Positions 39,007-47,076 of a stretch of 64,000 nt of DNA are shown in pieces (the stretch's first letter is position 1; every line of letters starts with the position of its first letter). Position numbers and translations under genes: made by a program. The notes under the pieces are model-generated. The model saw only the letters and a list, made by a program, of their open reading frames with translations, did no database searches and had not been told where the DNA came from. Origin of the DNA: Fontisphaera persica (GTDB lineage Bacteria > Verrucomicrobiota > Verrucomicrobiia > Limisphaerales > Fontisphaeraceae); the NCBI RefSeq assembly GCF_024832785.1, contig NZ_CP116615.1:3162001-3226000 (forward strand). The letters are read 5' to 3'.

Positions 39007-40662
39007 TCACAACTTTTTGACCAGCCGCAAGCTCGGCACATCAAACCATACCTCCCCGCCCTTGGCGCGCAGTTCGCAGACCAGTTCAACTTCCTCCCAG
39101 TCCAGTGTCACGGCAAAATCATACGTCATCATCTGCCAATCGGCGGTGCCCTCCAGCCCTTTTTCCCGCGCGGGCCTGCCTGCGACCCATAGCCCCGCCC
39201 CGGCCCCCCATTGGGATTTGACGGCCTGCACATTGGCCGTGCGCAGGCGACCCTCGAAGCGGTACCGGCCTGCCGGCAACATCAGGCGGCTGCGGAAACC
39301 GGGCGCGCCGCCGTGGCCGGCACGGATGTAAAGGGCAAGCGGCTGGCGCTGGATTTTGAGGTCGGCGCCCCCCTCATAAATGGGCGTCCATTGCGTCACC
39401 GGACACACCCCCTCCTTGTCAAACCGCGCCTGTCGCTGGGCCAATTCCAAGGTTTGTTTGCGGGCCGTCTCGGCGCGCACGGCCAAAGCCCGCAACAGTT
39501 CGCGCTCGCGCGCCTCGACTTCGCGCAAAGTGCGGACATCGTTGACGGCCTGCAACGCTTCCTTAAGCCGGAAGGCCGTTTGCACGACACGATTGGAGAG
39601 GTCCGGATAATGAAAAATATTGGTGGCAATGTAACACGAGCGCCGCAAAAACAACTGGCGGGCCTGCGGAGTTTGCAGGATGGACTTGGTCACCAGCCCG
39701 TTGTCGCCCGGGTCAAAGATGGAATGCCCCGGGTCGCGAAACAACTGGTCCAAATCGTTGGGCAAAAAGACCAGGCGGCCCGTGACCGGCTCGGCATAGA
39801 TGCGGAAGTTGTTGCGATTGCGGCTGTAACCGTCCCAATGCGCCGCCAGGGCTTCAATGGCCATCATGGAAACAAAGCGCTCCACGTCCACCGCGGCTTT
39901 GAGCTTCTCCCAGCGGGCTTCCGGATGGGGCTCCTGACAGGCGGCCACGGCGGCCTTGAGGTCTGCTTTGTCCGGCAGGCCATTGCCGAAGTCCAGGGTC
40001 AGTTCCTGATTGATGTCACGCCCGGGCTTGATGTCATAAAGATTGCCGGTGGCGGGGCGGAAATATCGCTTGAGGAAGTCATCGTGAAAATCCTCCTTGA
40101 GCACATACATGCCCAACAGGCGCCCGTTCAGCTCCACAATGGCATGGCCGGTGCGCGGTGAGGGCACGCCGGCGAGGCGAAAAAGGTAACCGCAGATTTT
40201 CTCGTTAAGATAACTGGGGTCTTGCACCGAATTGTTGAGCATGACTTTGAGCATGCCGTGGAATCGCTGGTCCGGCGTATGCCGGCCAAAGTGGAGCATC
40301 ATGCCCGGTTTGTTGTCCACGGGACGAAAACTTCCAGCCGCCCCTTTGAGATGCAGGGCCACGTTCAAGTAGGTTTTGCCGCCTTCTTTCACTGTGGCGC
40401 TGACATTTTGGCGGGGATTGCGCCGGAGACTTTCGTAGGCTTCGCGGCTGATTTCGATTTGAATGCGCGGGATGGGGCCGTTGGTGAACAGGTTGGCGCC
40501 GGGACGGGACAACTCATCCGGGTCCAGCACCAGCGGCGCCGTCGGAGGCCGGGTTGCCGGCTTGGACGCAGGTGCGGACGCAGGCGCGGTGGACCCTATG
40601 CTGCCTGCGGACAGCACGAGAATCCACCCCAAAACAGCCAGGCGGCCCAGCCAGGTTCGCAT
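39007..40662 (-). CDS. CotH kinase family protein, secreted
   Basis: The 551-aa product starts with a signal peptide (MRTWLGRLAVLGWILVLSA) and a Pro/Ala-rich linker. The CotH kinase-like domain (about residues 60-340) shows NVALHLKGAAGSF, the KEDFHDDFL...GNLYD block, HWDGYSRNRNNFRIY and RLVFLPNDLDQLF, where the final acidic pair is expected to coordinate metal. A coiled region rich in Arg/Glu follows, then a C-terminal beta domain (about 425-545). CotH is an atypical spore-coat protein kinase; in Verrucomicrobiota and Planctomycetota such proteins are secreted and uncharacterised. The gene is divergent from GH43; a 28-bp dyad lies 20 bp upstream of its ATG. Confidence 0.86.
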   Translation of the reverse strand: MRTWLGRLAVLGWILVLSAGSIGSTAPASAPASKPATRPPTAPLVLDPDELSRPGANLFTNGPIPRIQIEISREAYESLRRNPRQNVSATVKEGGKTYLNVALHLKGAAGSFRPVDNKPGMMLHFGRHTPDQRFHGMLKVMLNNSVQDPSYLNEKICGYLFRLAGVPSPRTGHAIVELNGRLLGMYVLKEDFHDDFLKRYFRPATGNLYDIKPGRDINQELTLDFGNGLPDKADLKAAVAACQEPHPEARWEKLKAAVDVERFVSMMAIEALAAHWDGYSRNRNNFRIYAEPVTGRLVFLPNDLDQLFRDPGHSIFDPGDNGLVTKSILQTPQARQLFLRRSCYIATNIFHYPDLSNRVVQTAFRLKEALQAVNDVRTLREVEARERELLRALAVRAETARKQTLELAQRQARFDKEGVCPVTQWTPIYEGGADLKIQRQPLALYIRAGHGGAPGFRSRLMLPAGRYRFEGRLRTANVQAVKSQWGAGAGLWVAGRPAREKGLEGTADWQMMTYDFAVTLDWEEVELVCELRAKGGEVWFDVPSLRLVKKL

Positions 40663-40984
40663 GGATATCACGATGAATGGACGCTTGAATGTAAGCTTAT
40701 GTTCAAGCGGAGTCAGCCGGAAACTGCTGCGCCCGGGGCACGAAAACTATTTACCCATTTTGGCAGGTGGCCCCCACGTGCAGATGCCACAGTCCCTTCA
40801 TCCCGCCTGTGGCCCACGTGTAACAAGGGGCCGGAGCATAAAAAACCCATTGTGTTTCACGCGGGGCCACCTTCAAAAATGCAGGCCAGCGCTTTCCCGC
40901 ACAAGCGCGTTCGCCTCGCGCGCCGAGCGCGGCGCAACCGATTTGGCTTTTCGGCGGTTTTGTTTCGGCGTACATCCCAAAGGC
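40663..40984. other. 322-bp divergent promoter region, cotH/GH43
   Basis: It holds a 28-bp near-perfect dyad (40682-40709) close to cotH, and two copies of CCCACGTG (around 40770 and 40813) embedded in similar GTGGCC-containing context. These could be regulator sites. No coding frame with a start signal was found other than the GH43 gene. Confidence 0.4.
40682..40709. promoter_or_regulatory. 28-bp dyad upstream of cotH and GH43
   Basis: Outer arms CGCTTGAA (40682-40689) and TTCAAGCG (40702-40709) and the core palindrome TAAGCTTA (40692-40699) are all symmetric; only the two TG dinucleotides between them break the DNA symmetry, and as RNA these would be G-U pairs. It sits 20 bp before the cotH ATG. 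Candidate operator or hairpin in the cotH leader. Confidence 0.55.
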
Positions 40985-41941
40985 ATGCAAACAATTTTTT
41001 GGCGGCAATGGCCGGCCCTCCTCCTGGGGGCGGTAATAATCCTGGCAGGACGTCCGGGAATGGCAGCGGAAGAGGAAGGGGAGTTGTTGTTCACTTCCTT
41101 CCGCCGCAACGGGGAGGATGGCCTGCACTTGCTGCACAGCAAGGACGGCTACACCTGGACCGCGTTGAAAAAGGACCAGTCCTTCCTGCGCCCGCAGGTG
41201 GGAGGCAAATTGATGCGCGACCCCTCGCTGGCGCAGGGGCCGGATGGCACGTTTCACCTCGTCTGGACCACGGCGTGGAACAAACATGGCGCAGGTTATG
41301 CCTCGTCCAAAGATTTAATCCACTGGTCTGAGCAGCGGTTGTTGGACGTGATGGCACACGAGCCACAGACGCGCAATGTGTGGGCGCCCGAGCTTTTTTA
41401 CGACACGGCGCAGCAGGAATGGCTCATCGTCTGGTCGAGCACCATTCCGGGACGGTTTCCCCAGACGGAAAAAGCGGGGGACGACGGCTACAATCACCGG
41501 CTTTATTTCACCACCACGAAAAATTTTCAGACGCTGGCACCCACGCGGCTGTTGTACGATCCGGGCTTCAACTGCATTGACGCCGTGATTTTCCGGGACG
41601 GCGCGCGGCACGTGATGATTCTCAAAGATGAAACGCGGCATCCGCCGGCGAAAAACTTGCGCGTGGCTTTCAGCGAGCGCGCCACCGGGCCCTACGGGCC
41701 GGCCTCGGCCCCCATCACCGGCAATTACTGGGCCGAAGGGCCGACGGTGATTAAAATTGGCGGGAAATGGTTTGTCTATTTCGACCGGTACACCGAGCAC
41801 CGGTACGGCCTGGTGACGTCCACGGATTTGCAAACGTGGACGGATGAATCGGACAAGGTGCGTTTTCCCAAAGACCACCGCCACGGCACGGTGTTGCGTG
41901 TCCCGCGGGCGGTGCTCGAGCGACTGCAGGCGGAACCATGA
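40985..41941 (+). CDS. Glycoside hydrolase family 43-like protein
   Basis: The 318-aa protein has a signal peptide (WPALLLGAVIILAGRPGMAA) and a single five-bladed-propeller-type domain. GH43 catalytic candidates are the Asp of MRDPSLAQG, the Asp of NCIDAVIFRDG and the Glu of YWAEGPTVIK, matching the base, pKa modulator and acid pattern. VWAPELFYD and YASSKDLIHW are further family marks. Activity is probably arabinosidase or xylosidase-like, consistent with the nearby GH51, GH127 and arabinose genes; exact specificity is an inference. An AAAGG precedes the ATG at 40985; the longer open frame upstream is not family-like. The protein lacks carbohydrate-binding modules. Confidence 0.8.
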   Translation: MQTIFWRQWPALLLGAVIILAGRPGMAAEEEGELLFTSFRRNGEDGLHLLHSKDGYTWTALKKDQSFLRPQVGGKLMRDPSLAQGPDGTFHLVWTTAWNKHGAGYASSKDLIHWSEQRLLDVMAHEPQTRNVWAPELFYDTAQQEWLIVWSSTIPGRFPQTEKAGDDGYNHRLYFTTTKNFQTLAPTRLLYDPGFNCIDAVIFRDGARHVMILKDETRHPPAKNLRVAFSERATGPYGPASAPITGNYWAEGPTVIKIGGKWFVYFDRYTEHRYGLVTSTDLQTWTDESDKVRFPKDHRHGTVLRVPRAVLERLQAEP

Positions 41942-42015
41942 TTTCCCATGAGTTGGCACCACCCTTCAACCTCCTTCCGGTCTGCCTGCGCACTTTGATT
42001 TAAGGAGCCGCCCCC

Positions 42016-42666
42016 GTGCCCAAGTGGGTCAAATTCATTGCGGCCTGGTTGCTGCTGCCCTTCTGCCTGGGGGCAGCCTCGGCCTTGTGGCGCGTGGCGC
42101 GCGCGGCGGGTGGCGCGGATACGGTATGGGTGCCCATGCTGGCCGGGGCGGCCTGCTGGGTGGTGATTTATCTGCTGCTGCCCCGGCCCATGTGGCTGTA
42201 CGTCTTCGGCCATGAACTGACGCATGCCTTGTGGACATGGCTGTTTGGCGGGCGGGTGAAACGCTTCAAGGCCAGCGCCCACGGCGGGCACGTCCTGGTC
42301 ACCAAGCACAATTTCCTCATCATTCTGGCGCCGTATTTTTTTCCGTTATATGCCGTCCTGGTGGCGCTGGTGTACGCGGCGGGTCATGCGGTGTGGGACT
42401 GGAGCGGTGGGCGGCCTTGGTTTCATCTGCTGCTGGGCGCGGCGTATGCCTTCCACGTCACCCTCACCGGCCACGTGCTGCACACCCGGCAGACCGATAT
42501 TACTTCGCAGGGTTATTTTTTCAGCGCGGTGATCATTTTCCTGGGCAACGCGCTGGTGTTGCTGGTGGCCCTGCCGCTGTTGTCCGGCCAGAGTGTGATG
42601 CGCGCATTGGGAGCATGGCTGCGCCTCACAGGCGATATGTGGATACGATCGTCTCAGTGGTTTTGA
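42016..42666 (+). CDS. M50-like membrane metalloprotease
   Basis: The 216-aa integral membrane protein shows HEXXH zinc-protease motif GHELTHALW in a membrane segment, as in the M50B family, with about five hydrophobic helices (AAWLLLPFCLGAASALW, MLAGAACWVVIYLLL, FLIILAPYFFPLYAVLVALV and others). The start is GTG at 42016, fixed by a full TAAGGAG Shine-Dalgarno at 42001-42007 with 8 bases of spacing. It could perform intramembrane proteolysis; no substrate such as an anti-sigma factor is encoded nearby. It lies 74 bp after GH43 on the same strand and is followed by a long noncoding stretch. Confidence 0.8.
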   Translation: MPKWVKFIAAWLLLPFCLGAASALWRVARAAGGADTVWVPMLAGAACWVVIYLLLPRPMWLYVFGHELTHALWTWLFGGRVKRFKASAHGGHVLVTKHNFLIILAPYFFPLYAVLVALVYAAGHAVWDWSGGRPWFHLLLGAAYAFHVTLTGHVLHTRQTDITSQGYFFSAVIIFLGNALVLLVALPLLSGQSVMRALGAWLRLTGDMWIRSSQWF

Positions 42667-43092
42667 GGGAAAACAGCACAGGTCCATGCCGGCACGCCGC
42701 CATTAATTTCGACGCAATATCTTCGAATGCTTTCGCTGTTACCCGGCAAACGCGACTGCCGCACAGATTTTTTTGCAAAGCCAGCGCAGCCATTCAACGC
42801 GCGGCGGCCGACGCAGCAAATCCTGACACCACGCGCTACACGGCACACGCGTCAGGATGATTCCGGGCAGCGCAACGAAAAAAATATTGCAGATTTTTTT
42901 GAACGACAGTTGACGAAAGCGCTCAAGCATGTCATATAAATGGCATGGCACACCATCAGCAGTCTGTGCGGCACATGTCACAGAGCGCAGGATGGTTTGT
43001 CTCTTCTGGTTCCTCCGTTGGCATTCAAGGAAGCGTGATTTTCTCTCCTCTCTCTCCCGGTGCATTTCTGCCCAGAAAGGAGGTGAAACACG
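42667..43092. other. 426-bp leader/promoter region of the Lys/Ala peptide gene
   Basis: The first half is AT-richer than the window average and has no supported gene. A promoter-like pair stands at 42910-42940. The remaining roughly 150 nt up to the peptide start would be a long 5' UTR; it has a pyrimidine tract (TTCTCTCCTCTCTCTCCC, 43041-43058) able to pair imperfectly with the Shine-Dalgarno region. Confidence 0.4.
42910..42940 (+). promoter_or_regulatory. Promoter-like element for the Lys/Ala peptide gene
   Basis: TTGACG (42910-42915) as -35 and TATAAA (42935-42940) as -10, spacing 19 bp (17 if CATATA is used). It is the best sigma70-like match in the gap. Confidence 0.45.
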
Positions 43093-43158
43093 ATGGCCGA
43101 TAAGAAGGCGAAGAAAGCGCCTGCCAAGAAGAAGGCAGCCGCCAAGAAGAAGAAATAA
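43093..43158 (+). CDS. 21-aa Lys/Ala-rich basic peptide, histone H1-tail-like
   Basis: The frame from ATG 43093 to TAA 43158 codes 21 residues: 11 Lys, 7 Ala, one Pro, one Asp and the Met, with KKAPAKKK in the middle as in histone H1/HU tails. The Shine-Dalgarno is exceptional: AAAGGAGGTG at 43077-43086, seven bases before the ATG. A promoter-like pair lies 150 bp upstream and a long terminator hairpin starts 20 bp downstream, so it forms a complete transcription unit. The likely property is nucleic-acid binding; the function is unknown. Too short for similarity searches; it could instead be a leader peptide, but no gene follows within the transcript. Confidence 0.7.
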   Translation: MADKKAKKAPAKKKAAAKKKK

Positions 43159-43177
43159 CCCAAACCTTTAACCCCAC

Positions 43178-43237
43178 AAGCCAGAGTTACATGGTTTTGG
43201 CTTAACCGAGGTCCATTTAACTCTGGCTTTTGCTTTT
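43178..43237 (+). terminator. Long-stem terminator after the Lys/Ala peptide gene
   Basis: AAGCCAGAGTTA (43178-43189) and TAACTCTGGCTT (43218-43229) form a perfect 12-bp stem. The 28-nt loop includes ATGG/CCAT pairing. TTTGCTTTT follows on the plus side. Confidence 0.75.
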
Positions 43238-43325
43238 CTGGTATGCTTGAAAAATATCCTCCCCCGCCAGCAGGGTGGCTGGCTCATGAACCATGCGCCC
43301 TCGCGCCAAGGTGGGAGAAAGCCGC

Positions 43326-44522
43326 ATGGAAACAGCCGTAAACATTGCTGCGCTGGAAAAGGAACGCCGCCGCCAGGTGGCCTTGATTGTCGAAACTTCG
43401 GTGGTCTATGGCCGCCAGATTCTGAGCGGCATTGCGCGGTACTTGCGGCAATATCCCGGCTGGTCTGTGTTTCTGGATGAACGCGAGCTGCGCGCGCCGC
43501 CGCCCGACTGGCTGGCAACCTGGCCGGGCGATGGCATCATCTGCCGCTCCACCACGCCGGAATGGGCGGAGATTTTCCGCCAGCGCCGGGTGCCGGTGGT
43601 GGATTTGAATGACCAATACGTGGATTTGGGTTTGCCGCGCGTGGCTTCGGACATGCCGGCCATCGGGCGGCTGGCCGCCGAGCATCTTTTGCAGCGAGGT
43701 TTTTCGCATCTGGCTTTTTGCGGTTTTTTGGGTGAGACGTGGTCTTTCCAGCGGCGCCAGGGATTTGCGGAAGTGGCCGGCGACAAATTGAAGCTGGAGC
43801 ACGTGCTGGAAACGCGGTGGATGTCCTTGCGCGAGCGGCCTTATGAGGAGGAGCGCAACCGGATTGCGTTGTGGCTGCAAACTCTGCCCCTGCCGGTGGG
43901 CATCATGGCCTGCAATGATGTCCGCGCCCAGCACGTCCTCGACGCCTGCCGCCAACTCGGGCTGGACGTGCCCCGGCAGGTCGCCGTGGTGGGCGTGGAC
44001 AACGCGGAAACCTTTTGCGAGCTGTGCGAGCCGCCGCTCTCCAGCGTGGTGCCCGATGCCGAACGCATAGGCTATGAAGCGGCAGCTTTGCTGGACCGCT
44101 TGATGGCGGGCAAACCTGCGCCCGCCCGGCCGCTCCTGCTGCCGCCCCAGGGTCTGGTGACGCGCCGCTCCACCGATGTTTATGCCTTTGCGGAGCCGGT
44201 GGTGGCCCGGGCCATGGAGTTCATCCGCCAAAATGCCTGCCAGGGCATCCGGGTGCGGGATGTGCTGCGCCATGTGAATTGCTCGCGTTCGTGGCTGGAG
44301 CGGGTCTTTCGCTATTACGTGGGTCATTCCCCGCGAGTGGAAATTCGCTCCGTGCAGTTGCAAAAAGCTCGCGAGCTGCTCCTGACCACCGATTGGAAAC
44401 TGCCGCAAATTGCCGGGGCCGTGGGCATGGAAAACACCGCCTATTTCGTGAATCTCTTCCGGCGGTTTTACGGCCAGCCGCCCGCCCGCTACCGCCGCCG
44501 CCATCGCGTGGACCATCCCTGA
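43326..44522 (+). CDS. XylR-type AraC-family transcriptional regulator
   Basis: The 398-aa regulator combines an N-terminal LacI-like periplasmic-binding-protein domain (about residues 15-280: QVALIVETSVVYGRQILSGIARYL, VGIMACNDVRAQHVLDACR, VAVVGVDNAETFCEL) with a C-terminal AraC double helix-turn-helix (about 295-392: VRDVLRHVNCSRSWLERVF, LPQIAGAVGMENTAYFVNLF). This is the architecture of xylose activator XylR. By position, just before the GH127 and GH51 arabinofuranosidase genes, I infer it senses a pentose and controls arabinose release. The ATG at 43326 follows a GGGAG; an earlier ATG at 43293 is less likely. The first gene target downstream starts 127 bp after its stop. Confidence 0.88.
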   Translation: METAVNIAALEKERRRQVALIVETSVVYGRQILSGIARYLRQYPGWSVFLDERELRAPPPDWLATWPGDGIICRSTTPEWAEIFRQRRVPVVDLNDQYVDLGLPRVASDMPAIGRLAAEHLLQRGFSHLAFCGFLGETWSFQRRQGFAEVAGDKLKLEHVLETRWMSLRERPYEEERNRIALWLQTLPLPVGIMACNDVRAQHVLDACRQLGLDVPRQVAVVGVDNAETFCELCEPPLSSVVPDAERIGYEAAALLDRLMAGKPAPARPLLLPPQGLVTRRSTDVYAFAEPVVARAMEFIRQNACQGIRVRDVLRHVNCSRSWLERVFRYYVGHSPRVEIRSVQLQKARELLLTTDWKLPQIAGAVGMENTAYFVNLFRRFYGQPPARYRRRHRVDHP

Positions 44523-44570
44523 GGCTGTCCCCCGCGGCAGGCCGCGGGCATGGCTGATGCGTGGAAAATA

Positions 44571-44585
44571 TCTGAATTATTCAGA
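44571..44585. promoter_or_regulatory. 15-bp perfect palindrome upstream of GH127
   Basis: TCTGAAT (44571-44577), central T, ATTCAGA (44579-44585). It is 64 bp before the GH127 ATG and 48 bp after the XylR-type gene. Candidate operator for that regulator. Confidence 0.45.
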
Positions 44586-44649
44586 CAAAAGATGAGAACC
44601 CTTCCCGCCGGGGCTGTGGTAAGGTCTTGAGTCTCGGTGACATTGGCAA

Positions 44650-47076
44650 ATGAAACGCGCAATCAAATTCGCAGGGCTCTGGATGATGTTGGGAATCGTG
44701 CATGCGATGGGCGCGCCCGGAGTGGCGCATGCCCGTCTCACCCCGGTCCCCCTCTCCCAGGTAACCTTGGAAGACAGTTTCTGGTCTCCCAAATTCAAGG
44801 TCTGGCGTTCAATCACCATCCCGGATTGCTTCGCCAAGTTCGAGAAGGACGGGGCGCTGGCCAATTTTGACAAAGTCCGCGACGGCACCGGCGGCAAACA
44901 TGCCGGCCCGCCCTGGTACGACGGCTTGATTTACGAGATGATTCGCGCCAGCGCGGATTTTCTGGCGATGCAGCGGGACGCGGCGCTGGAAGCGCGGCTC
45001 GAGGGTTACCTCGAGCGCATCGTGGCGGCGCAGGCTGTCCACCCCCAAGGTTATCTCAATACTTACACGCAACTGGAGCGCCCCCATCAACCTTGGGGGT
45101 TGAACGGCGGCGACGACAACTGGCAGCACGACGTTTATAACGCCGGCGCCCTGGTGGAAGCCGCCGTGCATTATTATCGTGCCACCGGCAAAACGCGCCT
45201 GCTGGAAGCCGCCGTCCGCCTTGCCAATCACATGGCCGAGGTCATGGGACCGCCCCCCAAACAAAACGTGGTGCCGGGACACTCGCTGCCCGAGGAGGCG
45301 CTGGTCAAGTTGTATGAGTTGTTTCTGGAGCAGCCTGCTTTGAAATCACGCCTGACTGTGCCCGTGGATGAGCGCCGCTATCTCCAACTGGTGGAGTTTT
45401 GGATTGAAAATCGCGGCCATCACACCGGCCGGAAGAGTTTTGGGGCGTATGGGCAGGACCATCGGCCCGTTTTGGAGCAGGAAACGCTCGAAGGCCACGC
45501 CGTGCGGGCCACTTTGCTGTGCGCCGGGCTGGTGGCGGCCGCGCAGGCCAATGGGCGCGCAGATTACCTGGCGGCGGCCACGCGGTTGTGGAGCAACATG
45601 GTGCATCGCCGCATGTATGTCACCGGCGGTCTGGGCGCCGTGGCGCAACATGAAGGCTTTGGCGGCGATTATGATTTGCCCAATGAAGGCTACCTCGAGA
45701 CCTGCGCCGCGGTGGGGGCGGGCTTTTTCCATCACCAGTTGAATCTGGCCCGAGGGGAGGCGCAATATGTGGATGAACTGGAACGGGTGCTGTACAACGC
45801 CATCCTCACCGGCGTTTCACTCCAAGGTAACACCTATTTTTATGACAACCCCCTCGCCGCCGGCCCCCAACGCCAGCGCTGGTCATGGCATGGCTGCCCC
45901 TGTTGCCCGCCGATGTTTCTCAAAATCATGGGCGCGCTGCCGGGTTACATTTACGCGCAGGCGCCGGGTGAAGTGTATGTCAATTTATTCATCGGCAGCC
46001 AGGCCACCGTGCAGGTGAACGGGGTCAAACTTCACCTGCGTCAAACAACTCGCTATCCGTGGGACGGAGAAATCAGGCTGACCGTGACGCCTGAGCGCCC
46101 GGTGGATTTTGTTTTATATGTGCGCCTGCCGGCTTGGTGTGAGCAGCCGCGCCTACGGCTGAACGGGCGGGTCCTCTCTTCCTTTGAGCCCGTGCGGGGT
46201 TATGCGCGGCTGCAGCGCCCCTGGCGGCGCGGCGATGTCGTGGAGCTTTCCCTCCCCATGCCGCCCGCGCGCATCAAGGCCCACCCCAAGGTGGAGGCCA
46301 ACCGTGGGCGCGTGGCATTGCAGCGCGGGCCTTTGGTTTACTGCCTTGAAGGCGTGGACCACGGGGGCCAGGTGCGGCATCTGGTGATTCCGCCCACAAC
46401 CATCCTGCGCGCGGAGCATCAACCGGCGCTGCTGGGCGGGGTGACCGTCATCCACGGCGACGCGCAAGCCGTGCATCGGGCCGAGTGGCCTGACACGCTT
46501 TACCTTCCCTCATCCCGCGCGCCAGGGCTGTCCAACACGACTTTTATGGCCATTCCCTATTTCGCTCACGCCAACCGCCAACCCTCGGAAATGCGCGTCT
46601 GGCTGGCCGAGACGCCCTTGGTGGCCGAGCCGCTGCCCCGCCCCACTGTGGCCAGCCGCGCCCAACCCTCAGCCTCCCATTGTTTTGCAAGGGACACGGT
46701 GGCGGCGCTGAATGACCAGGTGGAACCGTCGGCTTCGGACGATGCCAAAATCCCGCGCTTTACCTGGTGGGACCATCGCGGCACCACCGAGTGGGTGCAG
46801 TATGACTTTGCGGCGCCCACCCGGGTGCAGGCGGTGGAGGTCTATTGGTGGGACGAACGGCGCATCAACGCCCATTGCCGCGTCCCGCAAACGTGGCGCT
46901 TGCTCTATCGTGACGGCCAGGAATGGCGGCCGGTGCGCGGCGCCTCGGCCTGCGGCACGGAGATGGACCGGTTTAACCGGGTGACTTTCGAGCCGGTGGC
47001 CACCACGGCATTGCGGTTGGAAGTCCAACTGCAGCCGGGCTGGTCTGGCGGCATTTTGGAATGGCGCGTTCAGTAA
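44650..47076 (+). CDS. GH127 beta-L-arabinofuranosidase-like protein
   Basis: The 808-aa product has a signal peptide and an alpha/alpha-barrel typical of GH127 (DUF1680). Zinc/catalytic residues line up with HypBA1 of Bifidobacterium longum: E350 and C352 in GYLETCAAVG, and C418/C419 in WHGCPCCPP; the second Cys of the pair is the expected nucleophile. WNGGD-type GLNGGDDNWQHDVYNAG and HAVRATLLCAGL are further marks. A C-terminal beta-sandwich (about 670-805, FTWWDHRGTTEWVQYDF) resembles an F5/8 discoidin module. It should cleave beta-L-arabinofuranosides outside the cytoplasm. It follows the XylR-type gene by 127 bp and precedes GH51 by 104 bp. Confidence 0.9.
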   Translation: MKRAIKFAGLWMMLGIVHAMGAPGVAHARLTPVPLSQVTLEDSFWSPKFKVWRSITIPDCFAKFEKDGALANFDKVRDGTGGKHAGPPWYDGLIYEMIRASADFLAMQRDAALEARLEGYLERIVAAQAVHPQGYLNTYTQLERPHQPWGLNGGDDNWQHDVYNAGALVEAAVHYYRATGKTRLLEAAVRLANHMAEVMGPPPKQNVVPGHSLPEEALVKLYELFLEQPALKSRLTVPVDERRYLQLVEFWIENRGHHTGRKSFGAYGQDHRPVLEQETLEGHAVRATLLCAGLVAAAQANGRADYLAAATRLWSNMVHRRMYVTGGLGAVAQHEGFGGDYDLPNEGYLETCAAVGAGFFHHQLNLARGEAQYVDELERVLYNAILTGVSLQGNTYFYDNPLAAGPQRQRWSWHGCPCCPPMFLKIMGALPGYIYAQAPGEVYVNLFIGSQATVQVNGVKLHLRQTTRYPWDGEIRLTVTPERPVDFVLYVRLPAWCEQPRLRLNGRVLSSFEPVRGYARLQRPWRRGDVVELSLPMPPARIKAHPKVEANRGRVALQRGPLVYCLEGVDHGGQVRHLVIPPTTILRAEHQPALLGGVTVIHGDAQAVHRAEWPDTLYLPSSRAPGLSNTTFMAIPYFAHANRQPSEMRVWLAETPLVAEPLPRPTVASRAQPSASHCFARDTVAALNDQVEPSASDDAKIPRFTWWDHRGTTEWVQYDFAAPTRVQAVEVYWWDERRINAHCRVPQTWRLLYRDGQEWRPVRGASACGTEMDRFNRVTFEPVATTALRLEVQLQPGWSGGILEWRVQ

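Follow-up and report, generated by a model that had tools for sequence, protein, structure and literature searches.

A 21-residue Lys/Ala peptide gene of Fontisphaera persica and its relation to a length-variable, H1-like family in the order Limisphaerales

A micro-protein gene in an arabinose-utilization region

Positions 39007-47076 of the window (the whole stretch of 64,000 nucleotides analyzed here) are an arabinose-utilization region, where genes for a CotH-like kinase, a GH43-like arabinosidase, an M50B-like membrane protein, a XylR-like regulator (AraC-type HTH) and a GH127 beta-L-arabinofuranosidase are found. Among these genes lies a very short ORF accompanied by its own expression signals:

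42910-42940, forward strand: promoter-like pair, TTGACG (42910-42915) and TATAAA (42935-42940) 19 nt apart, with hexamers and spacing identical in the nearest relative (G001)
42941-43073, forward strand: pyrimidine-rich 5' leader of about 130 nt
43074-43086, forward strand: extended Shine-Dalgarno (SD) sequence AGAAAGGAGGTGA, complementary to the 16S 3' end of its own genome over 13 nt
43093-43158, forward strand: ORF for MADKKAKKAPAKKKAAAKKKK with its stop codon, 21 residues, including 11 Lys, 7 Ala, 1 Pro and 1 Asp
43178-43237, forward strand: terminator with a 12-bp stem (AAGCCAGAGTTA/TAACTCTGGCTT) and a T-rich tail, the stem being kept in G001

The coordinates, reading frame, length and Lys and Ala counts given for this ORF in an earlier note on the same DNA are correct, and the encoded peptide, MADKKAKKAPAKKKAAAKKKK, has a charge of approximately +11 over its 21 residues. 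The SD sequence itself contributes a TGA that forms an in-frame stop two codons 5' of the ATG, which makes the ORF free-standing, with no upstream extension. Pairing of AGAAAGGAGGTGA with the 16S 3' end of the genome (GGATCACCTCCTTTCT; L194) is perfect over 13 nt (duplex energy -23.5 kcal/mol), which makes the extended SD stronger than first stated. The sequence AAAGGAGGTGA is rare, occurring three times in the 4.73 Mb genome: at the window ORF, 5' of an ORF starting MASEPENTG and as the antisense of the 16S. A chance origin of the SD and Lys/Ala ORF is ruled out by reversed-pattern controls and by shuffling: none of 100 shuffled versions of the window matched the pattern of SD, ATG and first codons.

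The terminator that had been proposed right after the ORF is evident in the sequence, with a stem of exactly 12 bp (43178-43189 pairing with 43218-43229) followed by TTGCTTTTCT. The hexamers of the promoter-like pair are present and kept in G001, but the 19-nt spacing falls outside the 16-18 nt spacers of the sigma-70 scan, which for this reason returned no promoter match. The leader contains TTCCTCC and CTCTCCTCTCTCTCCC runs able to pair with the SD (window 43000-43092), and a hairpin including the SD is predicted both in the genome of the window (G000) and in G001, with an apex that differs but stays paired. Shuffled leaders left the SD at least as buried in 6 of 10 cases for G000 and 8 of 10 for G001; a leader hairpin that sequesters the SD is not claimed, predicted burial being no greater than with shuffled leaders.

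Searches of Pfam, NCBIfam, PHROGs and PDB gave nothing significant, no known RNA family in Rfam matched, and literature searches produced nothing specific on free Lys/Ala peptides of this kind.

Conservation within Limisphaerales

From SD to stop, the window and G001, a genome of the same genus, are identical at 80 of 80 nt. The 350-bp unit bounded by the -35 hexamer and the terminator is 88.6% identical and the downstream xylR-like gene 77% identical, and the two genomes do not share the upstream gene. Loss of the frame with retention of the surrounding RNA would, according to the earlier note, have refuted the gene; the comparison gave no such refutation, the frame being conserved nucleotide for nucleotide.

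The 320 genomes of the order were searched for a strict pattern made up of GGAGGTGA, an ATG and Lys in codons 4-5, and for a reversed pattern as control. It matched 65 genomes, once each, compared to a single match for the control. All of the 63 matches read were open Lys/Ala(/Pro) frames of 13 to over 130 aa. Among them are a short class of 13-30 aa, the shortest being MAAKKKAAKKKKK, and a long class of 60-134 aa with H1-like AAPKRKAKKK repeats, which the longest forms carry. An earlier query with GGAGG alone yielded 13 matches, 12 of which nevertheless had GGAGGTGA, indicating that the extended SD belongs to the family itself and was not imposed by the query.

Genomic context connects the two length classes. 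A gene starting MATLVFDIET, which from its look we take to encode an RNase-H-like exonuclease, lies downstream in 40 of the 63 loci, with divergent mutS upstream in 24 and apgM upstream in nine; these neighbors were named by recognizing their sequences, without profile searches. Both length classes are found at one syntenic locus, with mutS or apgM 5' and the exonuclease gene 3', suggesting a length-variable H1-like family with the tiny peptide at its short end. Judged by this synteny, the order family is orthologous to the longer H1-like repeat proteins, which supports the description of the product as a free and H1-like peptide. Among 29 genomes that lack a strict match and have the exonuclease gene, 14 contain a Lys/Ala ORF immediately 5' of that gene, either preceded by a variant SD or initiated at GTG, and in three the flank is too short to judge. 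In the genome of the window the exonuclease gene is elsewhere (C1:4013100-4013816). The window copy is therefore at a different locus from the ancestral one of the order, and its membership of the family rests on shared SD, sequence and single-copy status. In one genus of family f7 (L259-L265), Lys/Ala ORFs of 27-85 aa occur with no mutS, apgM or exonuclease gene within 1.5 kb.

Selection on the frame was estimated from 32 paired loci, giving pS of 0.39, pN of 0.09 and a ratio of 0.24, indicative of purifying selection. Pairs were required to have equal peptide length, similar flanks and at least 60% identity, a choice that favors a low ratio, and two of the 32 (L076.1/L076.2 and L103.1/L103.2) are tandem copies within one locus. 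The pairs L220/L222 and L164/L165 are clear examples of synonymous change with the frame kept. Some pairs, including that of the window, have no synonymous changes at all, and hence codon choice or the RNA may also be constrained. A stop codon followed by a stem of at least 10 bp and a T-run was found in 34 of 55 order members (62%; shuffles 0.7%) and in 33 of 100 others (shuffles 0.5%).

The monocistronic gene is real. It meets the criteria for a protein-coding gene, with a conserved frame, purifying selection and translation and termination signals of its own, and computation demonstrates its existence, the conservation of its frame and Lys/Ala composition and its own terminator.

Occurrence in other phyla and viruses

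A scan of named genomes, with a pattern that ties the end stop to no frame, returned at least 119 stretches, at least 100 of which contained free ORFs of 11-42 aa (at least 107 ORFs). Among the matches listed, these ORFs are 57% Lys and 23% Ala and mostly 11-21 aa long, and the stop at the pattern end is in frame in 94, out of frame in 12 (frame 1) and never in frame 2. More than ten phyla are represented among the matches listed, which come from Rokubacteria, Methylomirabilota, Chloroflexi, Eisenbacteria, Planctomycetota, Acidobacteria, Nitrospirae, Zixibacteria, Omnitrophota, Levybacteria, Magasanikbacteria, Eremiobacteria and others. Searches of 26 genomes from other phyla gave 34 matches and no control matches; these genomes were preselected for a match, and the informative part is therefore the absence of controls. 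In a class with a Rokubacteria match, 45 of 80 genomes matched, again with no controls, though a few of the matching sequences begin with MAHKK or MAGKK and could belong to other proteins.

Tandem micro-ORFs, each with its own full SD, occur as three copies in L076 (4306-4603) and as two in L079, L095, L103, L107 and L149. No neighboring gene was found to be constant across phyla, neighbors being conserved within groups only. In several Levybacteria-type genomes (L106, L118, L138, L153, L171 and L181), the micro-ORF lies near a serS-like gene upstream and a secA-like gene downstream. Given the low complexity of the sequences, homology across phyla cannot be proven, and common descent and convergence cannot be told apart. 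The earlier view that such Lys/Ala sequences are normally tails of larger proteins has to be amended, as free ultra-short versions are common both in the order and in other phyla.

A viral origin was considered and rejected: a viral scan gave 10 matches, most of which were unrelated ORFs and one or two of which were similar peptides. Short, free, Lys-rich ORFs resembling that of the window are present on the viral contigs L199 and L201 (MAKKKKGSKKLKDGKK and MATKKPAKGKAAPAKKKK).

These matches may represent an overlooked class of free Lys/Ala micro-proteins of 11-25 residues, with a near-perfect SD and often their own terminator, spread over more than ten phyla and among the smallest conserved protein types, that would condense DNA or RNA as a genetically encoded counterpart of polyamines (or would be part of the ribosome). 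This generalization is tentative, and we would not yet bet on it.

Proposed function and alternative explanations

We favor the reading that the gene encodes a free, highly translated polycation that binds DNA or RNA and forms the short end of an H1-like family, with a probability of roughly 0.6; that it is strongly expressed, that it binds polyanions and that its chief partner would be DNA and not RNA or polyphosphate is inferred. The near-perfect SD would drive translation at a high rate, and the 21-mer, predicted to be disordered, may serve as an abundant, sequence-independent counter-ion or condensing ligand of nucleoid DNA or RNA, acting in the manner of the Lys/Ala tails of Hc2, BpH1, AlgP or H1. 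By analogy, its composition, charge, absence of a domain and repeat-length variation match Hc2 and the AlgP tail, which would favor a nucleic-acid-binding polycation. The terms 'highly translated' and 'nucleoid- or RNA-binding' remain inferences from SD and charge, and the function is argued from composition, a trait common to many polyanion ligands, in the absence of expression or binding data.

Small ribosomal proteins in the 11-21-aa size range exist, and the product could be a ribosome-associated mini-protein on rRNA comparable to bTHX, bL37 or L41e, small and basic proteins that are disordered in isolation and very strongly translated. Its size (11-21 aa), Lys richness, near-perfect SD and single copy in every order genome with a strict match are consistent with this role. 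Yet lengths at a single locus span 13 to more than 130 aa, tandem copies occur in other phyla, and the family has neither a fixed sequence motif nor ribosomal neighbors; no PDB chain matched, a test limited by low complexity. Such freedom in length, copy number and sequence fits non-specific polyanion binding better, and a ribosomal role is unlikely, if still worth keeping in mind.

It is also possible, at similarly low odds, that the peptide is a ligand of polyphosphate granules or RNA condensates instead of the chromosome. AlgP, with similar Lys/Ala(/Pro) composition, is located on polyphosphate granules and needed for their spacing (PMC9239181), and the affinity of Hc2 for RNA is higher than that of Hc1 (PMC2848022). 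There is no constant neighbor with a polyphosphate or RNA function, and the present data do not separate one polyanion from another.

The position of a small ORF and terminator 5' of a same-strand gene, with the same exonuclease gene next in most order members, is reminiscent of a leader peptide and attenuator, in which the ribosome senses Lys codons and controls the terminator and the downstream gene. This is very improbable: the next gene is the xylR-like regulator in the window and G001 and looks like secA, uvrA or recG in other phyla, the exonuclease gene of the genome of the window is elsewhere, orthologues exceed 130 aa and tandem copies occur. The constant downstream target that an attenuator calls for is lacking, the gene that follows being xylR-like in G000 and G001, the exonuclease gene in most of the order and others elsewhere. 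A structured or regulatory RNA with an incidental Lys/Ala frame could account for the 80/80 nt identity to G001, synonymous sites included, and for the conserved leader, but can be given scant credence when synonymous sites elsewhere change with the frame kept (pS 0.39 vs pN 0.09), all matches are open Lys/Ala frames, Rfam has no match and SD burial is not above that of shuffled leaders.

The H1-like Lys/Ala sequences known so far are either tails or proteins longer than about 100 residues. The gene described here consists of nothing but the tail. It is conserved across the order and recurs in many uncultured phyla, with an ORF short enough to escape the size range that gene callers usually report. 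It offers a minimal natural system for asking what a lone Lys/Ala tail does, and suggests that a potentially abundant cationic peptide goes unannotated in many genomes.

Comparison with known systems

The peptide resembles the small ribosomal proteins bTHX, bL37 and L41e in size class, charge and inferred strong translation, but differs in having no fixed sequence, wide length variation and no ribosomal context. With the C-terminal tail of eukaryotic linker histone H1 it shares composition and a presumed diffuse use of polycation, though it is bacterial, only 21 aa long and without a globular domain. It is also similar to the C-terminal KPAA domains of AlgP and PhaF of Pseudomonas, Lys/Ala/Pro low-complexity tails that in the case of AlgP bind DNA as C-terminal peptides (PMC9239181). 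In AlgP and PhaF the tail follows an alpha-helical N-terminal domain within a larger protein, whereas here it is a free peptide of mainly Lys and Ala; their architecture is absent, the ORF being only tail-like, with an in-frame stop 5' and no structured N-terminal domain.

There are also parallels with two H1-like nucleoproteins, Bordetella BpH1 and chlamydial Hc2 (HctB). Hc2 is a ligand of both DNA and RNA, and Lys-rich repeats account for its variation in length (PMC2848022). The 21-mer had no match to the NCBIfam model for histone H1-like proteins of the Burkholderiales type (NF038053), against which long homologues from other phyla also fell far short, a 60-aa one scoring 8.8 bits where the cut-off is 80, and neither the 21-mer nor three long orthologues (104-134 aa) matched any Pfam family, HC2 included, at E<=1. 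Hc2 (165-237 aa) and BpH1 (182-206 aa) are far longer than the 21 aa here, and the order-wide syntenic locus beside mutS or apgM and the exonuclease gene sets the present family apart from them. Like Hc2 and BpH1, it has Lys/Ala-rich repeats with dispersed positive charge and varies in length by repeat number with the frame kept. The HC2-type trait of a Lys/Ala repeat protein whose repeat number varies in frame is seen at the syntenic locus, where lengths run from 13 to over 130 aa; the 21-mer qualifies only by standing at the short end of that series.
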